In this document: positions 17,479-64,000 of the stretch, one piece after another
Layout: each line of letters opens with the position of its first letter
Position numbering within the stretch: the stretch's first letter is position 1
Made by a program: the position numbers and the translations under genes
From: Synergistales bacterium
GTDB taxonomy: Bacteria; Synergistota; Synergistia; Synergistales; Aminithiophilaceae
Direction: 5' to 3'
DNA: 64,000 nucleotides
Assembly (NCBI GenBank): GCA_018433595.1
Contig: JAHDQY010000058.1
Coordinates: forward strand, 1 to 64,000
Notes under the pieces: generated by a model
What the model saw: only the letters and a program-made list of their open reading frames with translations
What the model was told of the DNA's origin: nothing
Databases searched by the model: none

Positions 17479-18960
<1,482 letters not shown>

Positions 18961-53483: not shown

Positions 53484-53512
53484 ATTCTACCCTTTTTACA
53501 CCTTTGGGTCAA
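53484..53512 (-). promoter_or_regulatory. Promoter for the lyase unit
   Basis: Minus-strand TTGACC, 17-bp spacer, TAGAAT (53484-53489). The -35 is part of an inverted repeat TTTGGGTC (about 53503-53510) ... GACCCAAA (about 53543-53550) that also encloses a plus-strand TATAAT (53522-53527). A regulator could bind the two arms. Confidence 0.6.
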
Positions 53513-53677
53513 CTCATTTGTTATAATTTTTGCGTATGGGTCGACCCAAACACAAAAAGCCCCCAAGCCTTCACCAGGATCGCAAGACAGCGCATCCGGG
53601 CGGCACCTTCGAGCCTCAGACAGGGAACAAGTTTTTGCTGGACAAGGCTTCTTTGAGCCATTATCATTAAAATTCGT

Positions 53678-53764
53678 GGAGGGCTGGCCGAGTGGTCGAA
53701 GGCGGCTGACTTGAAATCAGTTGTGGGTCTCCCACCGCGGGTTCGAATCCTGCGCCCTCCGCCA
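53678..53764 (+). tRNA. tRNA-Ser (TGA)
   Basis: 87-nt class II cloverleaf with a long variable arm (GTGGGTCTCCCAC) and CCA: acceptor GGAGGGC/GCCCTCC, anticodon loop TTGAAAT. Confidence 0.96.
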
Positions 53765-53774
53765 ACAGCCCATT

Positions 53775-53814
53775 AGCCGCCTGCGGGGAGTGTGACACCC
53801 TCTTGCAGGCGGCT
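53775..53814 (+). terminator. Hairpin after tRNA-Ser
   Basis: AGCCGCCTGC (53775-53784) pairs with GCAGGCGGCT (53805-53814), with further pairing inside. The T-run is short, so termination strength is uncertain. Confidence 0.6.
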
Positions 53815-53837
53815 TGATCGTATATGCTCCTTTAGGA

Positions 53838-53886
53838 CGGCAACCAGGCCTGTCCGAAAACCCTTTTTGGACAGGCCTGGTTGCCG
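53838..53886. repeat. 18-bp perfect inverted repeat after larC
   Basis: Arms 53838-53855 and 53869-53886 with a 13-base loop; no T-run follows on either strand. It lies about 100 bp past larC and may be its 3' end signal or a processing hairpin. Confidence 0.65.
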
Positions 53887-53984
53887 ATCATTTCATTCAC
53901 GGATCACCCAATAGAGGAGACGGAAGGCTCCTTCAATCTTCACCTCACCGCGCCGGCGAGGCGACAAAAGCGGCTCCGGGCCCG

Positions 53985-54851
53985 CTATTCCTCCCTTTGG
54001 AAGCTGGCCTCCGCTCCGTCATCGTCGCCGTGAGGATCGACGGGACGGGGCTCCCGGGACCCTTTCCCGCCGTCAGAGGTGTGGCTGTGGCTGTGCCGGT
54101 GGTCCCGGCAAGGGAGAGGGACCCCGCACGGAGAGGCGGCATCTTCGAGGAGCACCGCCTGAAGGAGGTTGGGCAGATCGCTGTCACGATCGCCCAGCCC
54201 GTAGCCGCTTTTGACGACGACTCCCGAAGGCATGAGGCCGTAGCGGTCGACGAAGAGGCGAAGCAGGATGGCCCCTGTCGGGGTGGTGCGCTCCATGGGG
54301 TCGCCCGAGCCGTAGACGGGGACGCCTTCGAGGAGCTTAAGCGTCGCCGGTGCGGGGACGGGGAACTCGCCGTGGGCGCAGCGGACCGTTCCGGAGCCGA
54401 CGTTGACGGGAGAGGCGACGATCTCGTCGGGGGCGAGGGCCTCCATGAGGACGCAGGCACCGACAATGTCGACGATGGCATCGACGGCTCCGACTTCATG
54501 AAAATGGATCTTTTCGGGTGAACGGCCGTGAACGGCTCCCTCCGCCTCGGCCAGAAGGCGGAAGGCCCTTTCGGCCTTTTCGGCGACAAAGGGGCTGAGA
54601 TCACTCTTTTCGATGACGGCAAGAATATCGGTCAGGCCGCGGTGAACGTGGCCCTCGTCAGAGAGGACTTTCACGTCGAGGCCGGCGATTCCCGACCGGA
54701 TTCCCCTCTCGGCGGTCACGTCCCACCCCTCAAGAGCCAATCCCTTCAGGAAAGGGCGGAGATCCCGCTCCCCCAGAAGTTCTAGAAGAGCCCCGAGGGT
54801 CATGTCACCGCTGATGCCCGCAAAACAGTTCAAGTAAAGGATCCGCTTCAT
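53985..54851 (-). CDS. larC: LarC-type nickel-insertion protein lacking the LarC2 domain
   Basis: A 288-residue protein matching the LarC1 half of the nickel-pincer-cofactor cyclometallase (LYLNCFAGISGDMTLGALLE in parts, EKIHFHEVGAVDAIVDIVG, GTVRCAHGEFPVPAPAT, TPTGAILL, GYGLGDRDS). It ends with a His-rich tail (RDHRHSHSHTSDGG). No LarC2 (CTP-binding) domain is found in any frame downstream; in Lactobacillus LarC2 is added by ribosomal frameshifting. So either the domain is elsewhere, or this form works without it. Overlaps larB by four bases (ATGA). Confidence 0.83.
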   Translation of the reverse strand: MKRILYLNCFAGISGDMTLGALLELLGERDLRPFLKGLALEGWDVTAERGIRSGIAGLDVKVLSDEGHVHRGLTDILAVIEKSDLSPFVAEKAERAFRLLAEAEGAVHGRSPEKIHFHEVGAVDAIVDIVGACVLMEALAPDEIVASPVNVGSGTVRCAHGEFPVPAPATLKLLEGVPVYGSGDPMERTTPTGAILLRLFVDRYGLMPSGVVVKSGYGLGDRDSDLPNLLQAVLLEDAASPCGVPLPCRDHRHSHSHTSDGGKGSREPRPVDPHGDDDGAEASFQREE

Positions 54852-55627
54852 CGATCTTCTCCTTCCGGAAGGTTTTCCCCGCCGTGCCGGGCCACGAGGG
54901 CGGCCGAATAGCCGGCTCCGACGCCGTTGTCGATGTTGACGACGGAGACGCCCAGCGCGCAGGCGTTGAGCATCGTCAGGAGGGGGCCGATCCCCCCGAG
55001 GGCGGCCCCGTAGCCGACGCTGGTGGGGACGGCGATGACGGGAGAAGCCACCAGGCCGGCGATGACGCCGGGGAGAGCCCCGTCCATGCCGGCCGCGGCG
55101 ACGATGGCGTCGGCCCGGCTGAGAGCGTCGAAATGGGCCAGAAGCCGATGGAGCCCGGCCACTCCGACGTCGAAGAGGCGCTCGACGGGACATCCCATCG
55201 TCTCGGCCGTAACGGCCGCCTCCTCGGCGACGGGGACGTCGCCGCTTCCGCCGGTGACGACGAGAACCCGGCCCCGACAGGGCTCCTGTCTTTCCCTCCA
55301 GTGACGCCCCATGCGGGCCGTCGCAAGGAATTCCAGCTCCGGGAGAATGGGCAGAAGCAGCCGATGCTGCTCTTCCGTCATCCGGGAAAAGAGGACCGGG
55401 CCCGGCCCTTCGGCGACGGCGGAAGCGATGCGTCGAAGCTGATCGGGGGATTTTCCGGGGCAGTAGATGATCTCGGAAAAACCGTTTCTCAGGGCCCGGT
55501 GGGTATCGAGCTTGACCTCACCGAGGTCCCGGAAGGGCAGGTTCTTGAGACATGCCAGGAAGGCTTCGACGCTGATTTCCTCTTGGCGCAGTCTGTCGAC
55601 CAGAAGTCGCAGTTCCCTTTCATCCAT
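54848..55627 (-). CDS. larB: LarB: nicotinic acid adenine dinucleotide carboxylase/hydrolase
   Basis: A 259-residue protein of the LarB family (AIR-carboxylase fold), first enzyme of the nickel-pincer nucleotide cofactor used by lactate racemase and relatives. The C-terminal core shows VVTGGSGDVPVAEEAA, AGMDGALPGVIAGLV, VPTSVGYGA and NIDNGVGAG, the PurE-like signatures. I use the ATG at 55627. larE and larA are not in the window; the malate/lactate-type dehydrogenase at 10522 is unrelated to LarA. Confidence 0.9.
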   Translation of the reverse strand: MDERELRLLVDRLRQEEISVEAFLACLKNLPFRDLGEVKLDTHRALRNGFSEIIYCPGKSPDQLRRIASAVAEGPGPVLFSRMTEEQHRLLLPILPELEFLATARMGRHWRERQEPCRGRVLVVTGGSGDVPVAEEAAVTAETMGCPVERLFDVGVAGLHRLLAHFDALSRADAIVAAAGMDGALPGVIAGLVASPVIAVPTSVGYGAALGGIGPLLTMLNACALGVSVVNIDNGVGAGYSAALVARHGGENLPEGEDR

Positions 55628-55702
55628 GAAATTTCGGGGTCCTTTCCTCATCCGTCAAATGATCGTCGCGCCGCTCGCAAGACGTCACTGAAAACCGTTC
55701 CC

Positions 55703-55752: not shown

Positions 55753-57546
55753 TCAAACTCCCCGTCTGACGGCTTCAAGGGTCCTGAGGAGACGGCGGTT
55801 GGAGGCGATATCGTGAACGCGGAGGATTTCGACCCCCCTTTCGGCGCAGAAGGCCGTGACGGCCAGGGTCTCTTCGAGCCTTTCGGCGGGATCGGGCGAT
55901 CCCTCGCCGGCGGGGTCGAGGAAGGCCTTCCGGGAGTGGCCGATGAGGAGAGGGAAGCCCAGCTCCATCAGGCGCCCGATTTCTCTCAGGAGGGTCAGAT
56001 TGTGAACCCGTCTCTTGCCGAAACCGATGCCGGGGTCGAGCAGGATCCGGTCCCGCGGGATGCCGGATCGGACGGCAACATCGACGCGATCCATCAGGAA
56101 AGCGATGACCTCGCCCAGGAGGTCATCGTAACGGGCCTCTTCCCGCGTGGTGCGAGGCGTCCCCTTCATGTGCATCAAAACGACGGGGACCCCGGCTGCG
56201 GCGATGACGGCGGCCATGTCGGGGTCGGCCAAGGCCGTGACGTCGTTGATGAGGTCCGCTCCCCACCGGATCGCCTCTTGAGCGACGGAGGCCCGGCTCG
56301 TGTCGACGGAAAGCACCGCCTCGGGCAGGCTCGACCTGACGGCGGCGACGACGTCGATCAGGCGTCTTTTCTCCTCCTCTTCGCTAATTTCGGACGCGCC
56401 GGGACGGGTCGATTGAGCGCCGATGTCGACGAGATCCGCTCCGTCGTCGATCATGTCCCGGGCCCGCGCGACGGCCGCGTCGACGCAGTTGACGCGGCTT
56501 CCCTCGAAAAAGGAGTCGGGAGTGACGTTGACAACTCCCATGAGAAGGGTTCTCCCCCCCAGCTCGATCCCTCGCCGCCGCGGCAGCCGGAGCACCATCC
56601 GCCTCCGTGCCCCCTCGGCACCGGGAAAAGCGGCGGTCACCGGAAGTCGGGGGCCGGCGGAAGCGTCCTTCCAGCGGGCCAGAAGCTCCGCTTCCGACCA
56701 GGGGCCCTCGGCGAGGAGAACGAAGAGGCCTGCCGTCGTCAGGTCGGCCGTCGTGCCCGGATTGAGCCGGTTGCCGAAGGCCCGGAGCTCCCCGTCAAAA
56801 CGTTCGAGGCCGGAGGGAGCGATGAAAAGCCTCTTCGAAGCCGTTTCAAGAAGTTCTGCCGCCCTGCGGGAGACGTCGCGGGCCCTTTCGATCCCCTCTT
56901 TTCTCGAAATCAGCGTATCGGGGACGGAGGCGAGGACGACGAGATAGGCCCGAACGACGGCATCGGCCAACCCGAGACCCGCCTCCAGCCCCTTGTGCAG
57001 TTCGGGAACGACGAGATCGAAGGTGAGGGCGAAGTCCGTTCCGTACTCGCGGGCCACGGAGTCCCGCGAAGCCGCCTCCTTCATGGCATCCAGCAGCGAC
57101 GGCGGCGCCTCTTCGGCCACGTCGTCCCTGTCGACCCGCCCCAGGCCGCCGGGAGCGGCCAGACGTATCGCCTCGTAGACGAGGCGGGCATCCTCTCCGT
57201 CCATCGATCGGAGCGTTTCGGCCGTCCTGGCCCTTAAGGTCCCCCTGGGACCGGATGAGGCGGCCATAGCCAGAGGGGCAAGCAGGAGAAGAATGCCCAG
57301 ATTGGTGTTGCTCCCGACGACGGCCGCCCTGGCCCTGACGGCGCGATGAACGAGGGAGCCGACGCTCCACCGCCGGGTCCCCCGCAGGGATTCCGCGGCG
57401 ACGACGGCGCTGGACAGAAAGTCGGGCAGCGTGGCGTCGTGAAAGTCGAAACGCCGGTTGACGTTGCCCGGTTTGGGGGCACAGGCCTCCCAGAGCGAGG
57501 CCAGTTCGACCCAGCGGGCGATTCGGGCGCGGCTTCTCCCCCTCAC
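55753..57546 (-). CDS. Fusion: CitG-family domain + dihydropteroate synthase
   Basis: A 597-residue single frame. Residues 1 to about 300 are CitG/MdcB-like (triphosphoribosyl-dephospho-CoA synthase family): CAPKPGNVNRRFDFHD, VGSNTNLGILLLLAPL, LNPGTTADLTTAGLFVLL in parts. Residues about 330-597 are a complete DHPS/FolP: LLMGVVNVTPDSF, DIGAQSTRPGA, INDVTALADPD, DPGIGFGK, LIGHSRKAFL. In methylotrophs a stand-alone CitG-like protein (Orf5) belongs to H4MPT/methanofuran synthesis with unknown chemistry. The join to FolP is, to my knowledge, unusual and suggests a two-step pterin condensation. GTG start overlaps the RimK-type stop (GTGA), with GAGGGGG before it. Confidence 0.88.
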   Translation of the reverse strand: MRGRSRARIARWVELASLWEACAPKPGNVNRRFDFHDATLPDFLSSAVVAAESLRGTRRWSVGSLVHRAVRARAAVVGSNTNLGILLLLAPLAMAASSGPRGTLRARTAETLRSMDGEDARLVYEAIRLAAPGGLGRVDRDDVAEEAPPSLLDAMKEAASRDSVAREYGTDFALTFDLVVPELHKGLEAGLGLADAVVRAYLVVLASVPDTLISRKEGIERARDVSRRAAELLETASKRLFIAPSGLERFDGELRAFGNRLNPGTTADLTTAGLFVLLAEGPWSEAELLARWKDASAGPRLPVTAAFPGAEGARRRMVLRLPRRRGIELGGRTLLMGVVNVTPDSFFEGSRVNCVDAAVARARDMIDDGADLVDIGAQSTRPGASEISEEEEKRRLIDVVAAVRSSLPEAVLSVDTSRASVAQEAIRWGADLINDVTALADPDMAAVIAAAGVPVVLMHMKGTPRTTREEARYDDLLGEVIAFLMDRVDVAVRSGIPRDRILLDPGIGFGKRRVHNLTLLREIGRLMELGFPLLIGHSRKAFLDPAGEGSPDPAERLEETLAVTAFCAERGVEILRVHDIASNRRLLRTLEAVRRGV

Positions 57547-58472
57547 GGCCGGTCCCCCTCAAGGCGCGCCAGGGCGCGGTCGACGATGATCGGAGCCATG
57601 GCGATTCCCGTAGCCACCTCCAGCCCCTTCCATCCGGGAATGCCGTTGACTTCGACGACGTGGAGCCTGCCGTCGTCACTTTTCATGAGATCGACGCCGG
57701 CATAAAAGGCTCCGACGGCCGAGACGGCGCGAAGGGCCAGCTCTTCCATCGCCTCGTCGGGACGGAAAGGCTCGCCCCGGGCCCCCTGGGCAATATTGGT
57801 GCGCCACCCCCTCCCCTTGCGGACCATGGCCGCCGCCACCTCGCCGTCGACGACGAAAAGGCGGTAATCCTCGTTGCCGTGGGCGATGAAACGCTGGACG
57901 TAGTGGACGTAGCGCCCCAGGTCAAGGGCCTTGAAGGCTCTCCAGGCGCTTTCGGGATCGGAGAGACGGACGATGCCCCGCCCCTCGGAACCAAAGAGCG
58001 GCTTGACGACGACGTCGCCGCCGAGCTCAGCAAAGGCCTCCATCGCCTCCTCGATCCTTTCGGTGACCCGGGTTTCCGGCGTCGGCAGCCCCGCCTCCTC
58101 GAAGAGGAGGGACGAGAGGAATTTGTCGACGGAGCGCTCCAGGGCGGCGGGACCGTTGACGACGAACCGGCCCCGCCGCTCCAGGAGGTGGAGGATATCC
58201 AGCCGGAAGATGACCTGTTCCAGCGATCCTGCGGGGAGCGCCCGGACGAAGAGAAGATCCGCCTCGGCCAGCGTCCGGCCCAGAGAGGCCGCAGGCGAGG
58301 GGAAGCTTCCTCCGCTTCCGTCGCCGGCGGCCCTTGCGGATCCGACGGCTCCCGTCATCCGCGTCGCCGGAAGGCATGTCACCGCAACCTTCCGGTGACG
58401 CAAGGCCGCCTCCAGGCGCTCGGCGTGCCAACCTTCGGGGTTGCCGACGATAAGGGCCTTCAGAGAAACCAT
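57543..58472 (-). CDS. RimK-type ATP-grasp ligase (MptN-like)
   Basis: A 309-residue ATP-grasp enzyme: nucleotide-binding VVKPLFGSEGRGIVRL, YVQRFIAHGNEDYRLFVVDG in parts, and the Mg-binding VVEVNGIPGWKGLE. RimK homologues in C1 clusters (MptN in methanogens, Orf17 in Methylorubrum) add glutamate to tetrahydromethanopterin/sarcinapterin or to methanofuran. I assign it by context and family. It overlaps both neighbours. Confidence 0.87.
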   Translation of the reverse strand: MVSLKALIVGNPEGWHAERLEAALRHRKVAVTCLPATRMTGAVGSARAAGDGSGGSFPSPAASLGRTLAEADLLFVRALPAGSLEQVIFRLDILHLLERRGRFVVNGPAALERSVDKFLSSLLFEEAGLPTPETRVTERIEEAMEAFAELGGDVVVKPLFGSEGRGIVRLSDPESAWRAFKALDLGRYVHYVQRFIAHGNEDYRLFVVDGEVAAAMVRKGRGWRTNIAQGARGEPFRPDEAMEELALRAVSAVGAFYAGVDLMKSDDGRLHVVEVNGIPGWKGLEVATGIAMAPIIVDRALARLEGDRP

Positions 58473-59422
58473 GATCGGGCCAGCAGATCCCCTCGGGTCT
58501 TTCCCACGTGGAAGGTGCGCCCCGAGAGAACGTTGTTGACGAAGACCTCGGCGGGACTGAAAAGCATGGGGTCGATTTTGTAGAAGTCACGGTCGTATTC
58601 CTGAAAAATCTCCAGGAAGGGGCGTCCGTAGTCGACGGAACAGGACGAGACAAGCCGCTCCGCCACGGCGGCGATGGCCTCGTCGTCACCTCTAAGGGCG
58701 TACCAGGCCGTCCCCCCGTAGAGGACGGCGTCGTTGGTCCGTCCCATGGCCGTCAGGTCATCGGCGGCGACGGGAGCGACGGGGCAGGTTCCCGAGGCCG
58801 TCAGAACGGCGTCGACGGGAAGCCCCAACTCGATCATCTTGTGGATGCCCGTCTCCACCATTCGGGCCGCGATCTGGACGGAGCCGACGACGCTAGCCGT
58901 AGGCGCGACGAGCATGGAGAGCCCCCCAGGCGAGATGGAACAACGTTCGGCGAGGAATTCGGCTACCGAGTCGTCGGGAAAAGCCCGTGTCTCCAGAGCG
59001 ATGACGGCCCGGCGGGAACGCTCCCTCAACTGCAGCCGGTCCAGGACCGGCTCCGACGAGCCGAGCATGCGGGCCGGTCCCGACCCCATGGCCCGCCAGG
59101 TCTTATCCTCTTCTTCGACGACCTTGACCTCCCATCCGGCGTACTGACAGCCGATGCAGAGCTTCACCGGATGAGGCAGTGTCACGGCCAGGGCGGGCCA
59201 GCGGGCCTCTTCGAGATCGACCTTCCAGAAGCTCAGTTCGCCCCAGCCTCCCAGGCAGGCCAGGGCGAAGAGACGCCCCGCCTCAAGCGAGCCCTCCGCC
59301 TCGATGCCGGCATCGATCCAGGTCGCGCCGCAGGCGAGGCGATGAACCTCAAGGCCCAGAATTTCGGCGTCGGCCGCCATCGCCTCGACGATATCGGCGC
59401 TTCGCTCATTGAGGCTCTTCAT
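58460..59422 (-). CDS. mch: Methenyl-tetrahydromethanopterin cyclohydrolase
   Basis: A 320-residue Mch, which interconverts methenyl-H4MPT and 5-formyl-H4MPT. Conserved stretches: IDAGIEAEGSLEAGR, PVKLCIGCQYAGW, SGTCPVAPVAADD, AMGRTNDAVLYGG and the C-terminal DPMLFSPAEVFVNN. The family occurs in methanogens, methylotrophic proteobacteria and some planctomycetes; finding it in a likely fermenter is noteworthy. The ATG is preceded by GGGGGAGA and overlaps fhcC. Confidence 0.94.
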   Translation of the reverse strand: MKSLNERSADIVEAMAADAEILGLEVHRLACGATWIDAGIEAEGSLEAGRLFALACLGGWGELSFWKVDLEEARWPALAVTLPHPVKLCIGCQYAGWEVKVVEEEDKTWRAMGSGPARMLGSSEPVLDRLQLRERSRRAVIALETRAFPDDSVAEFLAERCSISPGGLSMLVAPTASVVGSVQIAARMVETGIHKMIELGLPVDAVLTASGTCPVAPVAADDLTAMGRTNDAVLYGGTAWYALRGDDEAIAAVAERLVSSCSVDYGRPFLEIFQEYDRDFYKIDPMLFSPAEVFVNNVLSGRTFHVGKTRGDLLARSWFL

Positions 59423-60224
59423 AAGTCAGAATCTCCCCCTTTCCCAGGCTGGTCACATCACCGGTCCAGCGGCGGTAGGGTCCCAGGCGGTGAGCCTCCG
59501 TCACGGGGAAGCCCCGGTCGGCCAGAAAGCGCAGGAGAGGAAGGAGAAAGAGAGGACGGTAGAGGCAGCCCGCCTGGTAGGTCGGAAGGGGTTCGGTCTC
59601 CATGCCTCCCAGGGCGACGACGGTCCCCCGTTTCGATCCGGCTCCGGCCCGGGCGCCGAGGAGGCCGAAAACGACGACGGTTCCGGCGAGGATGTTGACG
59701 GCGGCGAAATCGCCGGCCCTCCCGCCGATGACAACGAGCCCCCGCCGCATCCGTTCCCCCGCCCTGACGGCGGCGTCGCCGTGCACGAGGATGACGCCTC
59801 CCGTCATGCCCTTCGTCTCGCCGGGATAGGCTCCGGCGAGGTAGGGCCCGGCCGATCCGGCGACCTCAAGGGTCCCGCCGGACATCATCGCGCCGGCCCA
59901 GGCGTCGACGTTCCCCTCGACGCGGATCGTTCCGCCCGACATGGCCGACCCCAGGTGCATCCCCCCGTCGCCCCGGACCACCAGAAGCCCCTCCTTCATG
60001 GCCCGTCCGATCTTTTTGACGCGGGAAAAATCCCCCTCCAGGACGAGCCCCTCCCCCCTTTCGACGTCGATCTCGAAAAGCTCGCCCAGAAGGCGGGTCC
60101 GGCGGCCGTAGGCCACGGTGTGGCGCCCCGCCCTCTCGGCGTTGACGCCGCAGAGATTCTCCGGCGTCAGGACCTCCGCCTCGACGGGGAGATCGAAGAC
60201 GAATCGCGGACGGAGGATCGTCAT
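59406..60224 (-). CDS. fhcC: Formylmethanofuran dehydrogenase/formyltransferase complex subunit C
   Basis: A 272-residue beta-helical subunit (FwdC/FhcC, GltB-C-like fold). It shows repeated Gly-rich turns (GGTIRVEGNVDAWAGAMMSGG in parts, GGVILVHGDAA, GLVVIGGRAGDFAAVNILAG) and the bacterial C-terminal tail (YRRWTGDVTSLGKGEIL). In bacteria FhcA-D form a formyltransferase/hydrolase complex releasing formate from formyl-H4MPT through methylofuran. Overlaps fhcD (ATGA). Confidence 0.92.
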   Translation of the reverse strand: MTILRPRFVFDLPVEAEVLTPENLCGVNAERAGRHTVAYGRRTRLLGELFEIDVERGEGLVLEGDFSRVKKIGRAMKEGLLVVRGDGGMHLGSAMSGGTIRVEGNVDAWAGAMMSGGTLEVAGSAGPYLAGAYPGETKGMTGGVILVHGDAAVRAGERMRRGLVVIGGRAGDFAAVNILAGTVVVFGLLGARAGAGSKRGTVVALGGMETEPLPTYQAGCLYRPLFLLPLLRFLADRGFPVTEAHRLGPYRRWTGDVTSLGKGEILTYEEPQ

Positions 60225-61132
60225 GGTCCTTCACCCTCCTTCCCCTCTCCGGCGACGATCTCCTGAAGGTGGAAGCGGTACTGACCCAGGCTGCCGCCGT
60301 AGTTTCCCGCCGAAATCCGGACGACGCCGGGCCGGGCGGCAGCTTCGATCCCGACCTTCATGGCCTTCCGGACAGCCTCCTCGTCGAGGCCGTCGATAAC
60401 GATTTCGTAGACGGCGTTGACCGTCTCGGGCAGCTCCGTGGCGACGAGCGAACGCAGGCTCGGACAGTAGGCGCTGTTCGTCGAGGCCGAGAGGAACTTG
60501 TAGCGCGATCCGACCTTGCTGCCGCTGCGGACGATCCCGCCGGGGAAGGGAAGAATCGCCCCCCCGACCGGCTCCATCGCCGCCACGGCCGCCTCGACCG
60601 AGGCCAGCGCCGAGGCGGCCGTCTCGGCGAGGACCAGGAAATTGCCGCCGCCGACGCTTCTCTGGATGGCGAAACGGTCCTCCACGAGGAACTCGCCGTC
60701 CATGACGGGGATACGCCAGTAGCGCCTGCCGCCGAGAACCTTGCTCCCCTGGTACCCGTCGCCGAAGTAGCGGAGCTTGCCGCCGACGGAGACCGCCTCC
60801 TCGCCTTCGAGACCGCAGAAGCAGGCCGTCGTGGCGCAGGTCATGACGCCCTGGCCGACCCGGAGAACAAGCTGCGCCTCCAGATCCTTGCGGGAGGGGG
60901 CGAAAAGGAGCACGGCCGTTCCGGGCCTGCCGTCGGGCGTCCTTTCCGGAGGCAGCATCTCCTCGATGCCCGCCTCGCAGCCACAGCCGATGACGGAAAT
61001 GGCAAATCCCGAGGCGGCCTCGGCGGCGATGCGGGCCCAGCGCGGGCTCTCGGCGGTGATCAGAAGGCGCGTTCCCCACATCTTGAAGGCCTCGGCATAG
61101 GTCTCTTCGATCTCAACGCCGTGAAGACGCAT
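60221..61132 (-). CDS. fhcD: Formylmethanofuran--tetrahydromethanopterin formyltransferase
   Basis: A 303-residue Ftr/FhcD: VEIEETYAEAFKMWGTRLLI at the N-terminus (20 residues), VIGCGCEAGIE, TCATTACF, KLRYFGDGYQ, and the C-terminal RISAGNYGGSLGQYRFHL in parts. It moves the formyl group between H4MPT and a methanofuran-type carrier. In bacteria it is part of the Fhc complex. ATG with GGAGGTG upstream; overlaps mptG. Confidence 0.95.
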   Translation of the reverse strand: MRLHGVEIEETYAEAFKMWGTRLLITAESPRWARIAAEAASGFAISVIGCGCEAGIEEMLPPERTPDGRPGTAVLLFAPSRKDLEAQLVLRVGQGVMTCATTACFCGLEGEEAVSVGGKLRYFGDGYQGSKVLGGRRYWRIPVMDGEFLVEDRFAIQRSVGGGNFLVLAETAASALASVEAAVAAMEPVGGAILPFPGGIVRSGSKVGSRYKFLSASTNSAYCPSLRSLVATELPETVNAVYEIVIDGLDEEAVRKAMKVGIEAAARPGVVRISAGNYGGSLGQYRFHLQEIVAGEGKEGEGP

Positions 61133-62099
61133 CAGGCACCTCCTCCCTGAAAGGGTCGATCCTCTCGATGCGGGCGCCTTCGTTCAAAGCGGAGGCCAGG
61201 ATCAGCTCCGTCCCGCGGGGCAGCGAACGCCGTTTCATCCTTCCCATGGCGGCCTCGGCGCGGTCAGGGTCGTCGAAGAAACCGAAGACGGCCGGTCCCC
61301 AGGAGCTCTGGCCGACGCCGAGAGCCCCTTCCGCGGAGAGAGCCCCCAGGAGGCTTTCCGCTTCGGGCGAGGCGAAAAGCCCCCCCTGGACGGCGGAAAA
61401 AGACGCCCCCACCAGCCGCTGAATCTCCGTCAGCGCGGCTCCGAAGGCGGGGCCGTCCTCCTCCTCCAGCGCCGGCAAAAGGCTCATCAGGACGAGACGG
61501 CAGAGCCCGGAGGCCAGTTCCGGCTCGGGAGGAGCCATCCGTTCCAGGGCCCGTTCCTCGGCGTCCCCCGACAGCCCCGCCTCATCGCAGGCGACGGCGA
61601 GAAGAAACCGCCACTCCGGAGGCGGAAAACGGCGGAGCAGGAGCGGCGGAGGCCCTTCCTGGCCGGGACGGAGACCTCCATCAAGGATGAAGCCACCGGC
61701 GGCGAAGGCCTCGACGCCGACACCGGACCGCCTCCCCCGGCCCAGGAGGGAGGCCAGGCGGCGGGGTTCACCGTCGAGGCCGAGAAGCTCGGCCACGATC
61801 CTCCCCACCGCCAGAGCCACCTGTGTGCCGGAGCCGAAGCCGACATGGGCTCTCGCCGTCTCCAGAAGACGCACCTCCAGAGGGGGAAGGTCCCCTCGGA
61901 AGCTTTTGGCGACAGCCTCCACCCTGAACCGGAACGATTCCGGCCCCTTGTAGCTCCAGCAGGCAGCCTCGCCGGCCTCGACAATCGTGCGGGGCCTGTC
62001 GATGGAGATGCCGAGGCTCCCGAAACGCCTGCCCAGCCCCCCGTGAAGGTCGAGAAAGCCGAGATGCAGTCTGGAACCCGTTTCGATGCGCAGCGTCAA
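61113..62099 (-). CDS. mptG: Beta-ribofuranosylaminobenzene 5'-phosphate synthase
   Basis: A 328-residue GHMP-superfamily-like enzyme that joins PRPP and 4-hydroxybenzoate/4-aminobenzoate with loss of CO2, the first committed step towards the H4MPT side chain. Signatures: RIETGSRLHLGFLDL, GSLGISIDRP, HVGFGSGTQVALAVG, GRGRRSGVGVEAF, GVGQSSWGPAVFGF. I prefer the TTG at 62099, which has GGAGGAGGG six bases upstream and overlaps the DUF447 stop (TTGA); the ATG two codons upstream is too close to that site. Confidence 0.94.
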   Translation of the reverse strand: MTLRIETGSRLHLGFLDLHGGLGRRFGSLGISIDRPRTIVEAGEAACWSYKGPESFRFRVEAVAKSFRGDLPPLEVRLLETARAHVGFGSGTQVALAVGRIVAELLGLDGEPRRLASLLGRGRRSGVGVEAFAAGGFILDGGLRPGQEGPPPLLLRRFPPPEWRFLLAVACDEAGLSGDAEERALERMAPPEPELASGLCRLVLMSLLPALEEEDGPAFGAALTEIQRLVGASFSAVQGGLFASPEAESLLGALSAEGALGVGQSSWGPAVFGFFDDPDRAEAAMGRMKRRSLPRGTELILASALNEGARIERIDPFREEVPDASSRR

Positions 62100-62656
62100 G
62101 AACATCCCTCCTCCACCAGCTTTTCCAGCAGCCTCAGGGCCAAGGCCTCCCGCTCCCCTCCCGTTTTCGCCGTCAGGAGACGGGCCCGGTCGAGGAGGGC
62201 GAGCCGCTGCTCTTTCGGAATCCAGGCCCTCCGCGTAACCGCCACCGTCGCCTCAAGGATCGCCGCCGCGGAGCGGTTGAACCCCAGAAACTCCCGGCCC
62301 CTTCCGGAGCCGACGACGCCGCAGAAGAAACGGCATCGCGCCCCTTCGTCGACGGAATCGACGAGACGGAGCTCCCGATAGGAGCAGACCTCTTCAAGAA
62401 TTCCTCCGGGGACGGTCCGTGAAAGGCGGTGAACCCGGTCTCTCCGGGCCGCCTCGACAAGGGAGCAGGCGACGAAGAGACCGACATCGTCGGTGATGTT
62501 GGCCACGGCTCCCCGTCCTGCGGCCAGGTTCGCAAAGGTGCGACTGCTCCTGTAGGGGAGGATCTCGATTTGCCGCTCCCCCCAGACGAGCCCCATGGGG
62601 GCGAAATGGGTGACGCCGTCGTCGTCGACCGTCGAGAGAATCGTCTCGATGATCAT
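62096..62656 (-). CDS. DUF447 flavoprotein-like protein
   Basis: A 186-residue protein of DUF447, a split-barrel FMN-binding fold. N-terminal IETILSTVDDDGVTHFAPMG and FANLAAGRGAVANITDDV are characteristic. DUF447 genes sit in methanogen genomes and bacterial H4MPT clusters, so a reductase step in cofactor synthesis or maintenance is likely but unproven. It overlaps both neighbours. Confidence 0.88.
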   Translation of the reverse strand: MIIETILSTVDDDGVTHFAPMGLVWGERQIEILPYRSSRTFANLAAGRGAVANITDDVGLFVACSLVEAARRDRVHRLSRTVPGGILEEVCSYRELRLVDSVDEGARCRFFCGVVGSGRGREFLGFNRSAAAILEATVAVTRRAWIPKEQRLALLDRARLLTAKTGGEREALALRLLEKLVEEGCS

Positions 62657-63975
62657 GGTCTTTCCCCCCGATAGCCGAAGCGGAGAGGCTCTTCCTGGAC
62701 GTACTTCTTGCCGAGCTTCCTGGCCGTATCGGCCCGTTCGAGCTCCCTTCCGAGATAGAAGGCGTGAGAGCTCTCGACGTCACCGAGACGGGAGAAGATC
62801 TCCGCCGGGTCATCGCCGACAACGAAAAGGCGGCTGTTGAAGACGTGGATCCGTCCCTGCGCGACGAAGATGCGGAAATTCCGGTCCTTCACCCGCGAGG
62901 CGAGGTCCCGAAGCTCCCCCTCGGAATAGCCTTCGAAGGGCAGCGCCTTGGCGACGACGAGGTCGCCCCTCAGGTGCTTGGGCAGCGTCCTGCGCCTTCC
63001 GGCCCAGTGCATCATGCGGCGGGCCCGGTCGAGTTCCCTCACCGACCCCGAAGCCCAGGAGACGACCTCCGTCGTGAGGAGATAGTCGATGGCAAGCTCT
63101 TCGGCTATCCCCGCCAGCAGGGCGTTGATGCCGACGCTGTCGGCTTCGACGAGCTCCGTCACGTTGCCCGCCCCCATGAGCATCGGGACCCCGGGGTAGC
63201 GCCTCCTCACCTCGACGTAACCGGCGACGGCCTCGGCGAAGCCGAAAAGGAGAGGCGAGAGCAGGGGGTCGGCGACGACGGGGAAACCGGCTTCAAGAGC
63301 CCGGTCGAGGTTCCGGAAGAGGCTCTCCAGACCGCCGCCGCCGTCGGGGATGACGACAGCGGGAGAGACAAAATCACCGAGAAGGTCGAGAGTCTCGCCG
63401 CTGACGCTCAGCAGAAGATCGGCCCCGGCCCGGGAGGCCTCCTGCAGCGTCGTCCTGTCGAGAGAGTCGACGCTGACCTGAAGTCCCTCGGCCTTGAGGA
63501 GGCGGACGGTTTCGCCCACTTCGGGGAAAGGTCCTCCCGGCGGACCGCCGAGATCGACGATGTCGGCACCGTCGTCGGTGAAGGCCCTGGCCGCGGCGAG
63601 GCATTCGGCGGGGGGAAGCCGCCAGGCGTCGACGATCTCGGCGACGATCCTCAGACGGTAGCCCTCGTAGACCACCGGCTCCCCCTCGCCGCCGAAATAG
63701 CGGGGCAGGTCCTTCAGGTCCTTCGGCCCCCGTCGGACGGGGACGCCGAGGCGCCGCTCCAGCGGCTCCAGCTCGCCCCGGGCCAACCCCGGCAGGAGGA
63801 TTTCGTCGCAGCCCCGGGCATCGGGAAGATGGCGACCGGCCCAGTCGGCGGTCATGAGGGCGGCAACGGAAATGGGAAGGACGGCGGGAACGGCCTCCAC
63901 GTCCCCAAACCTGGGAAGGAGAGCCTCCAGGTAGGGAGCCGCCAGAGTTCCCGTGACGAGAAGGACACGCCTCAA
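62653..63975 (-). CDS. Dihydropteroate synthase-like protein of H4MPT synthesis (DUF6513 type)
   Basis: A 440-residue protein with an N-terminal DUF6513-like region (RRVLLVTGTLAAPYLEALL) and a pterin-binding TIM barrel (GADIVDLGGPPGG, SVDSLDRTTLQEASRAGAD, MGAGNVTELVEADSVGINAL in parts). It corresponds to the Orf7/MJ0107-like family, which is expected to make the pterin-RFAP bond; this is separate from the FolP half encoded at 55753. The TTG at 63975 follows GGGAGAGGA; an ATG at 63996 is in frame but lacks a site. The window ends 25 bp upstream, so further genes of the cluster probably continue. Confidence 0.87.
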   Translation of the reverse strand: MRRVLLVTGTLAAPYLEALLPRFGDVEAVPAVLPISVAALMTADWAGRHLPDARGCDEILLPGLARGELEPLERRLGVPVRRGPKDLKDLPRYFGGEGEPVVYEGYRLRIVAEIVDAWRLPPAECLAAARAFTDDGADIVDLGGPPGGPFPEVGETVRLLKAEGLQVSVDSLDRTTLQEASRAGADLLLSVSGETLDLLGDFVSPAVVIPDGGGGLESLFRNLDRALEAGFPVVADPLLSPLLFGFAEAVAGYVEVRRRYPGVPMLMGAGNVTELVEADSVGINALLAGIAEELAIDYLLTTEVVSWASGSVRELDRARRMMHWAGRRRTLPKHLRGDLVVAKALPFEGYSEGELRDLASRVKDRNFRIFVAQGRIHVFNSRLFVVGDDPAEIFSRLGDVESSHAFYLGRELERADTARKLGKKYVQEEPLRFGYRGERP

Positions 63976-64000
63976 GGAAGATCCTCTCCCAGCCATCGGG

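Follow-up and report, generated by a model that had tools for sequence, protein, structure and literature searches.

Three described systems come closest to the locus considered here, a tetrahydromethanopterin (H4MPT)/methanofuran operon for one-carbon (C1) metabolism in a Synergistales bacterium (GCA_018433595.1). The 3′ half of the operon lies in the stretch of DNA that we analyzed, hereafter the window, which consists of bases 1-64000 of contig C26 (JAHDQY010000058.1; 75,899 bp) from a genome of 2.53 Mb that is 99.65% complete. The tungsten/molybdenum formylmethanofuran dehydrogenase (Fwd/Fmd) branch of the methanogens, with Ftr and Mch, shares with this operon the Fe-S and metal-ligand residues of FwdABCD, the Ftr and Mch enzymes, and the H4MPT synthesis genes. 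It differs in that our locus has an NAD(P)-type MtdB where methanogens use the F420-dependent Mtd, an operon without FwdF/G, and a bacterial host of the Synergistota that lacks carbon monoxide dehydrogenase/acetyl-CoA synthase (CODH/ACS), MfnB and MfnF. The methylotroph pathway of Methylorubrum and other proteobacteria has in common with our locus MtdB, Mch, homologues of FhcA, FhcC and FhcD, MptG, DUF447, the DHPS-like protein, and both the RimK and ATP-grasp ligases. In contrast, Fae is missing here, and an FwdB with a metal ligand together with a separate FwdD points to redox chemistry and not to hydrolysis; likewise, the mfnB gene present in the Azospirillum cluster is absent.

H4MPT genes have previously been published for Synergistetes (Chistoserdova 2016, PMC5020050) and for Acetomicrobium hydrogeniformans OS1 (PMC6025917). 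According to the excerpts of these papers, the sets have the Fwd subunits, Mch and Ftr in common with ours and keep fwdD and afp; indeed, the A. hydrogeniformans operon (L019, L047) is homologous almost gene for gene. Thus, the occurrence of the pathway in such a host, which had surprised the author of an earlier note on the window, is not in itself the surprise. The same excerpts report presence only, with no description of DUF2193, a test of the FwdB ligand, the absence of Fae, the loss of MfnB/MfnF or the CitG-FolP fusion of this genus.

The earlier note described eight overlapping, head-to-tail genes of H4MPT/methanofuran families as a single unit, and the coordinates, overlaps and family assignments were all borne out. 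The eight open reading frames (ORFs) occupy positions 55753-63996, all on the - strand, and each adjoining pair shares 4 to 20 bases; coding on this strand is backed by the codon-position GC content, and the arrangement resembles one transcription unit. Reading rightward, as the note had proposed, we found fwdA, fwdB, fwdD, mtdB, mptA and DUF2193 on contig C26 within 12 kb of the window end. The complete operon comprises 16 genes and runs ~9 kb past the end of the window, in the order DUF2193-mtdB-ATP-grasp-fwdD-fwdB-fwdA-[HPPK-mptA]-flavoprotein, followed by the eight window genes (Table 1). The note had supposed that the end of the window hid FhcA/B, MtdB and Fae; the first three are indeed next door, but Fae (PF08714) is absent from the genome and was found in 0 of 188 Synergistota genomes, in a search whose positive controls worked.

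In the explanation that we consider probable, this operon is native to its Synergistota lineage and works oxidatively, from methylene-H4MPT to CO2 through a redox-type Fwd. As its gene families show, the operon encodes H4MPT synthesis, two ATP-grasp ligases of the type that builds carrier tails, and a C1 route in which an NAD(P)-type MtdB is joined by Mch, Ftr and an FwdABCD complex with intact Fe-S and Mo/W-ligand residues. The same island is present in three congeners, two of which are single-contig genomes, and therefore it is not contamination. Its DUF2193 protein is 88% identical to that of 'Synergistota bacterium strain L-13' (CP074691) and 90% identical to that of Synergistaceae MAG3 JKF15_7, which assigns our genome to the genus of strain L-13. 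Ftr was identified in 21 of the 188 Synergistota genomes, distributed over several families, and the island is largely syntenic among them. In the Ftr tree, our sequence falls within its genus (100/99) with family f4 adjacent, and the aerobic proteobacteria cluster on their own (100/100); support for the deeper branching order of the phyla is weak. The nesting among methylotroph proteobacteria on a contaminated contig that the note had considered was thus not observed, and a contaminant or methylotroph origin is ruled out by the tree, the single-contig congeners and the spread over several Synergistota families.

Formylmethanofuran dehydrogenase and its carrier

In aerobic methylotrophs, formate is released from the formyl group through hydrolysis by the Fhc complex, whose B subunit no longer has the metal site. 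Our operon encodes the four subunits FwdA, FwdB, FwdC and FwdD. Its FwdB matches the FwdB of the methanogen tungsten enzyme from end to end (5t5i, E 6e-124) and the Methylobacterium FhcB only weakly (9e-12), and it retains the Fe-S cysteines Cys10/13/17/36 as well as the Mo/W-ligand Cys113. The alignment showed that the four Fe-S cysteines and a ligand at position 113 are retained in the anaerobe loci, whereas position 113 is Ala, Gly or Asp in the six aerobic proteobacterial FhcB loci (L127-L132). FwdD matched 2ki8 (1.6e-23) and was undetected in those six loci; in the excerpted text of PMC5020050, FwdD is not found in Proteobacteria and Planctomycetes. Additionally, FwdA keeps the metal-site motifs DMHTH, VKIVNPGG, IHVHG and TTDHPNGG (HxH, Lys, His, Asp), as read by eye from the alignment with 5t5i and 8rja. 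Because the FwdB ligands, FwdD and the FwdA motifs are all retained, we expect FwdABCD to act as a CO2-linked formylmethanofuran dehydrogenase of the redox type. This residue test is informative, since an Actinobacteria genome has shown that the Fwd of an anaerobe can lack the tungstopterin motifs (PMC7325909).

In four Firmicutes, position 113 of FwdB corresponds to an in-frame TGA in the context SY-U-HGPG (Table 1). A GC-rich hairpin lies 3′ of the TGA, with modest folding z-scores of -1.2 to -2.4, and these four proteins are apparent bacterial selenocysteine formylmethanofuran dehydrogenases. One of the aerobic loci, L127, belongs to plasmid pTs485 of the purple sulfur bacterium Candidatus Thiodictyon syntrophicum, where fhcBA-fhcD-fhcC lies beside photosynthesis genes and FhcB is without the metal ligand. 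In the congener G022, the FwdA match is split between two frames, with the two pieces overlapping (L025:12354-14029), while FwdA is intact in G021; the split would be a frameshift or a sequencing error in a single genome.

For H4MPT synthesis, the cluster encodes MptA, HPPK, MptG, the DHPS-like protein and the flavoprotein. The DHPS-like protein, which had no match in a search of the PDB, is a candidate for the pterin-arylamine condensation step. In the CitG-FolP protein, a CitG-like domain (aa 10-276) precedes a dihydropteroate synthase (DHPS; aa 335-592). The full-length fusion occurs only within the genus, and other Synergistota matches cover the CitG part alone. The genome has an additional stand-alone DHPS on contig C67; the fused DHPS is thus a surplus copy, which plausibly is reserved for the H4MPT branch.

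In methylotrophs, MyfA (OrfY) and MyfB (Orf5) attach the glutamate tail of methylofuran (PMC8141765). The RimK-type ligase of our operon stands beside mch, which is the position of Orf5/MyfB, the methylofuran glutamate ligase of Methylorubrum. Its family assignment in the earlier note holds, but an MptN label is unsafe given this position; the ligase scored 238 bits against the MptN model, whose cut-off is 350. From family and position, it is probably a methylofuran-type glutamate-tail ligase, and family and neighborhood likewise suggest MyfA/MyfB-like tail roles for both ATP-grasp ligases. Both ligases are kept although the furan-head enzymes MfnB (PF04476) and MfnF (TIGR03123) are absent from this genome and its three congeners. 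MfnB and MfnF occur together in only three of the 21 Ftr-bearing Synergistota genomes, all of the Acetomicrobium family, and MfnB occurs in 26 of 35 genomes with DUF2193, a sample drawn for the most part from other phyla. Among cultured relatives, A. hydrogeniformans has MfnB and strain L-13 lacks it. With neither mfnB nor mfnF in the genome, the carrier's furan head would have to come from a non-homologous pathway or an outside source; the candidates are a synthesis route of another kind, uptake from neighboring methanogens, or a different head group.

DUF2193 at the head of the operon

DUF2193 (PF09959) is an uncharacterized archaeal family that we also found in H4MPT operons of several bacterial phyla. 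The protein at the head of our operon has 510 residues and matches the family model with an E-value of 2e-228 (759 bits, model positions 2-490 of 498). It is the most conserved member of the operon, sharing 88-90% identity with its counterparts in the genus and 68-84% with those of other Synergistota, as compared with 82% and about 49-72% for FwdB. It is encoded in 20 of the 188 Synergistota genomes, and Ftr accompanies it in 18 of these 20, compared with 21 of all 188 genomes, an association whose Fisher p-value of 4.2e-20 is overstated because related genomes are not independent. The operon probably begins at DUF2193, since the start of a divergently oriented nitroreductase gene lies 486 bases upstream; a gap of 81 bases separates DUF2193 from mtdB, and a consensus scan for a promoter upstream of DUF2193 gave nothing convincing.

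A scan of named genomes identified 79 DUF2193 loci in Synergistota, Chloroflexi, Actinomycetota, deltaproteobacterial lineages, Caldisericota, Armatimonadetes, Firmicutes and archaea. In bacteria, DUF2193 lies 5′ of the Fwd genes and of mtdB, with mtdB as the very next gene in several phyla. In 33 loci, 17 of them archaeal, it is followed by an AqpM-type channel of the major intrinsic protein family, an arrangement seen in archaea, many Firmicutes and Deltaproteobacteria, and a sigma-54 activator precedes DUF2193 in most of the Firmicutes loci. Mch was present in 36 of 39 sampled DUF2193 genomes, and Fae was lacking in 28 of 35.

The structure model of the DUF2193 protein of locus L035, which is 90% identical to ours, is confident (pLDDT 91.3, pTM 0.92) and nearly all helical. 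Neither a comparison of the model with PDB folds (best E 0.08, TM-score under 0.2) nor a sequence search of the PDB gave a match. Residues Cys430, 447, 477 and 480 and several His, Asp and Glu residues are invariant or nearly so; the protein is therefore likely to bind a metal or an Fe-S cluster, with Fe-S or Zn predicted at the four cysteines. We tentatively propose that DUF2193 supplies C1 units to H4MPT. In a fuller version, to be taken with similar reserve, it would be a new fold that loads C1 onto H4MPT and replaces Fae in anaerobic bacteria, with the AqpM-type channel as its companion in archaea, and in this genus the formyl carrier would obtain its head by some route yet to be recognized. 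We also looked for a fixed transporter partner in Synergistota and rejected it, as the neighbors vary (a major facilitator superfamily protein in L047, a sodium:solute symporter in L068 and an amino-acid permease in L035); therefore, no substrate can be deduced from them.

Direction of the pathway

In a peptide fermenter without CODH/ACS, the pathway would run oxidatively. Methylene-H4MPT, its C1 unit perhaps furnished by DUF2193 in place of the missing Fae, would be converted to methenyl-H4MPT and then to formyl-H4MPT with the formation of NAD(P)H. The formyl group would be handed to a methanofuran-type carrier, from which FwdABCD would free CO2, not formate, and pass low-potential electrons onward, probably to ferredoxin and H2. 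A redox formylmethanofuran dehydrogenase is thus the most likely link between methylene-H4MPT and CO2. The acetyl-CoA synthase CdhC/AcsB (PF03598) was found in none of the genomes of the genus and in 11 of the 188 genomes of the phylum; FTHFS is present, so a folate C1 route coexists. Separately, some termite-gut Synergistaceae (G155 and G156; L029, L030) combine CdhC with the Fwd/Ftr/DUF2193 set and may have a complete H4MPT-linked acetyl-CoA route.

Several points weigh against this explanation. The sequence does not fix the direction of the operon, and a reductive, biosynthetic direction is possible. No FwdF/FwdG polyferredoxin that would indicate the electron acceptor was found in a search confined to the operon, and the MfnB/MfnF gap leaves the formyl carrier unexplained. 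As for DUF2193, the family is found alongside Fae in archaea as well, and in Methanococcus voltae it has been proposed to be metal-related and linked to iron-sulfur supply (PMC9431491). The protein may instead help to provide Fwd with Fe-S clusters or metal, or take part in making the carrier.

Run reductively, the pathway would use reduced ferredoxin and NADPH to fix CO2 as methylene-H4MPT and feed serine, glycine or methyl-group synthesis, as a partial methyl branch without CODH/ACS. FwdABCD is of the CO2-reducing type, every step is reversible in principle, and the operon is without a proven dedicated C1 donor gene. Nevertheless, we regard this direction as unlikely: formate and folate can supply biosynthetic C1 through FTHFS, the genus has no CODH/ACS, and the NAD(P)-type MtdB of known bacteria acts toward methylene oxidation. 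The absence of MfnB and MfnF from the genus and their joint presence in only three of the 21 genomes with Ftr, together with the lack of Ftr in 167 of the 188 Synergistota genomes, would fit a decaying pathway in which Fwd and Ftr idle without methanofuran and only the H4MPT-bound steps, or none, work. This is very unlikely in view of subunits that are all intact and conserved across families, with their catalytic residues and both tail ligases retained; moreover, Caldisericota and several Chloroflexi whose operons look complete lack MfnB as well, a pattern that resembles a genuine variant more than decay.

The remaining explanation, formaldehyde detoxification or formate release in the manner of the methylotrophs (Fae, MtdB, Mch and the Fhc hydrolase), was the one put forward in the earlier note, and MtdB, Mch, Ftr and FwdA/C are indeed homologous to methylotroph enzymes. 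We consider it highly improbable. Detoxification is at odds with the lack of Fae across the phylum, and formate release presumes a hydrolase, yet FwdB keeps its Mo/W ligand and FwdD is present, both lacking in the aerobic loci examined; the Ftr tree also parts our sequence from the aerobic proteobacteria.

Flanking genes and meaning of the operon

Table 1. Positions of the operon genes, the genes downstream of them and the in-frame TGA codons of Firmicutes fwdB
Feature	Coordinates	Strand	Match or remark
LarC N-terminal part	window 53985-54839	-	Ni_insertion 1-235 of 375
LarB-like (AIRC family)	window 54848-55651	-	~100 bases downstream of the CitG-FolP gene
CitG-FolP fusion	window 55753-57546	-	PF01874 1e-61; TIGR01496 2.5e-92
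RimK-type ATP-grasp ligase	window 57543-58472	-	TIGR00768 9.7e-55; immediately 3′ of mch
mch, methenyl-H4MPT cyclohydrolase	window 58460-59422	-	TIGR03120 3.1e-106; 1qlm E 4.2e-82, full length
fwdC (FwdC/FhcC), formylmethanofuran dehydrogenase subunit C	window 59406-60224	-	TIGR03122 1.2e-66
ftr (fhcD), formylmethanofuran:H4MPT formyltransferase	window 60221-61132	-	TIGR03119 4.7e-128; 1ftr E 3e-94
mptG family, beta-ribofuranosylaminobenzene 5′-phosphate synthase family	window 61113-62105	-	TIGR00144 2.7e-40
DUF447 protein, conserved cluster member	window 62096-62656	-	PF04289 6e-17
DHPS-like protein (DUF6513 + pterin-binding)	window 62653-63996	-	TIGR00284 4e-59, under the model's own cut-off
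Flavoprotein (PF02441, AfpA-like)	C26 63972-64523	-	3′ end in window, 63972-64000
HPPK-MptA fusion	C26 64499-65968	-	
fwdA	C26 65935-67632	-	
fwdB	C26 67629-68897	-	
fwdD	C26 68894-69223	-	
ATP-grasp (MyfA/MfnD-like)	C26 69105-70382	-	
mtdB (MtdA/MtdB-type dehydrogenase)	C26 70379-71245	-	MtdA match full length, 4e-79
DUF2193, first operon gene	C26 71327-72859	-	
FwdB in-frame TGA, Peptococcaceae MAG	L071:17099		
FwdB in-frame TGA, Moorella sulfitireducens	L074:19158		
FwdB in-frame TGA, Formimonas warabiya	L075:18900		
FwdB in-frame TGA, Desulfosporosinus lacus	L076:19112		

Downstream of the operon, larB and the front part of larC occupy the same position in all four members of the genus. 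Further downstream, none of the three - strand frames shows a continuation of larC (window 53500-54839), and the gene, ending at about two-thirds of the family model, appears to be truncated or split. Genes for the nickel-pincer cofactor (larB, larC, LarA) turn up repeatedly around the H4MPT cluster: larC lies within it in two distant families, f11 and f12 (L012:4616-5296; L014:1379-2071), and LarA adjoins DUF2193 in two loci (L051:539-1822; L036:16316-17677). A LarA/2-hydroxyacid link for DUF2193 was discarded, as this neighborhood occurs in too few loci. On the other side, toward the contig end, the nitroreductase gene (L003:13345-14160, +) and the C-terminal part of a pyruvate:ferredoxin oxidoreductase (L003:14237-15898, -) lie upstream of DUF2193 as a candidate electron-transfer context.

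Judged from ORF starts, the rest of the window contains 2-oxoacid oxidoreductase-like, peptide-transport-like and LeuCD-like genes and fits an anaerobic peptide fermenter, in agreement with the amino-acid-fermenting diderm of the earlier note. Between positions 17500 and 31800, the third-position GC (~0.4-0.75) is below that of the flanks, the ORFs are transporter-like and amidohydrolase-like, and the stretch was possibly acquired.

Beyond the published occurrence of H4MPT genes in Synergistota, our analysis predicts that Fwd is of the redox type, finds Fae and MfnB/MfnF absent across the genome, describes the gene fusions, and brings out DUF2193 as a head protein that is widespread in the H4MPT operons of anaerobes and still unexplained. 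The Fwd residues would split the bacterial complexes into the redox, CO2-linked form of anaerobes and the hydrolytic Fhc of aerobes. The question thus moves from why a fermenter has H4MPT genes to how formylmethanofuran enzymes operate in organisms without the known furan-synthesis genes, and to how C1 units enter H4MPT in anaerobic bacteria without Fae, for which the operon points to DUF2193.

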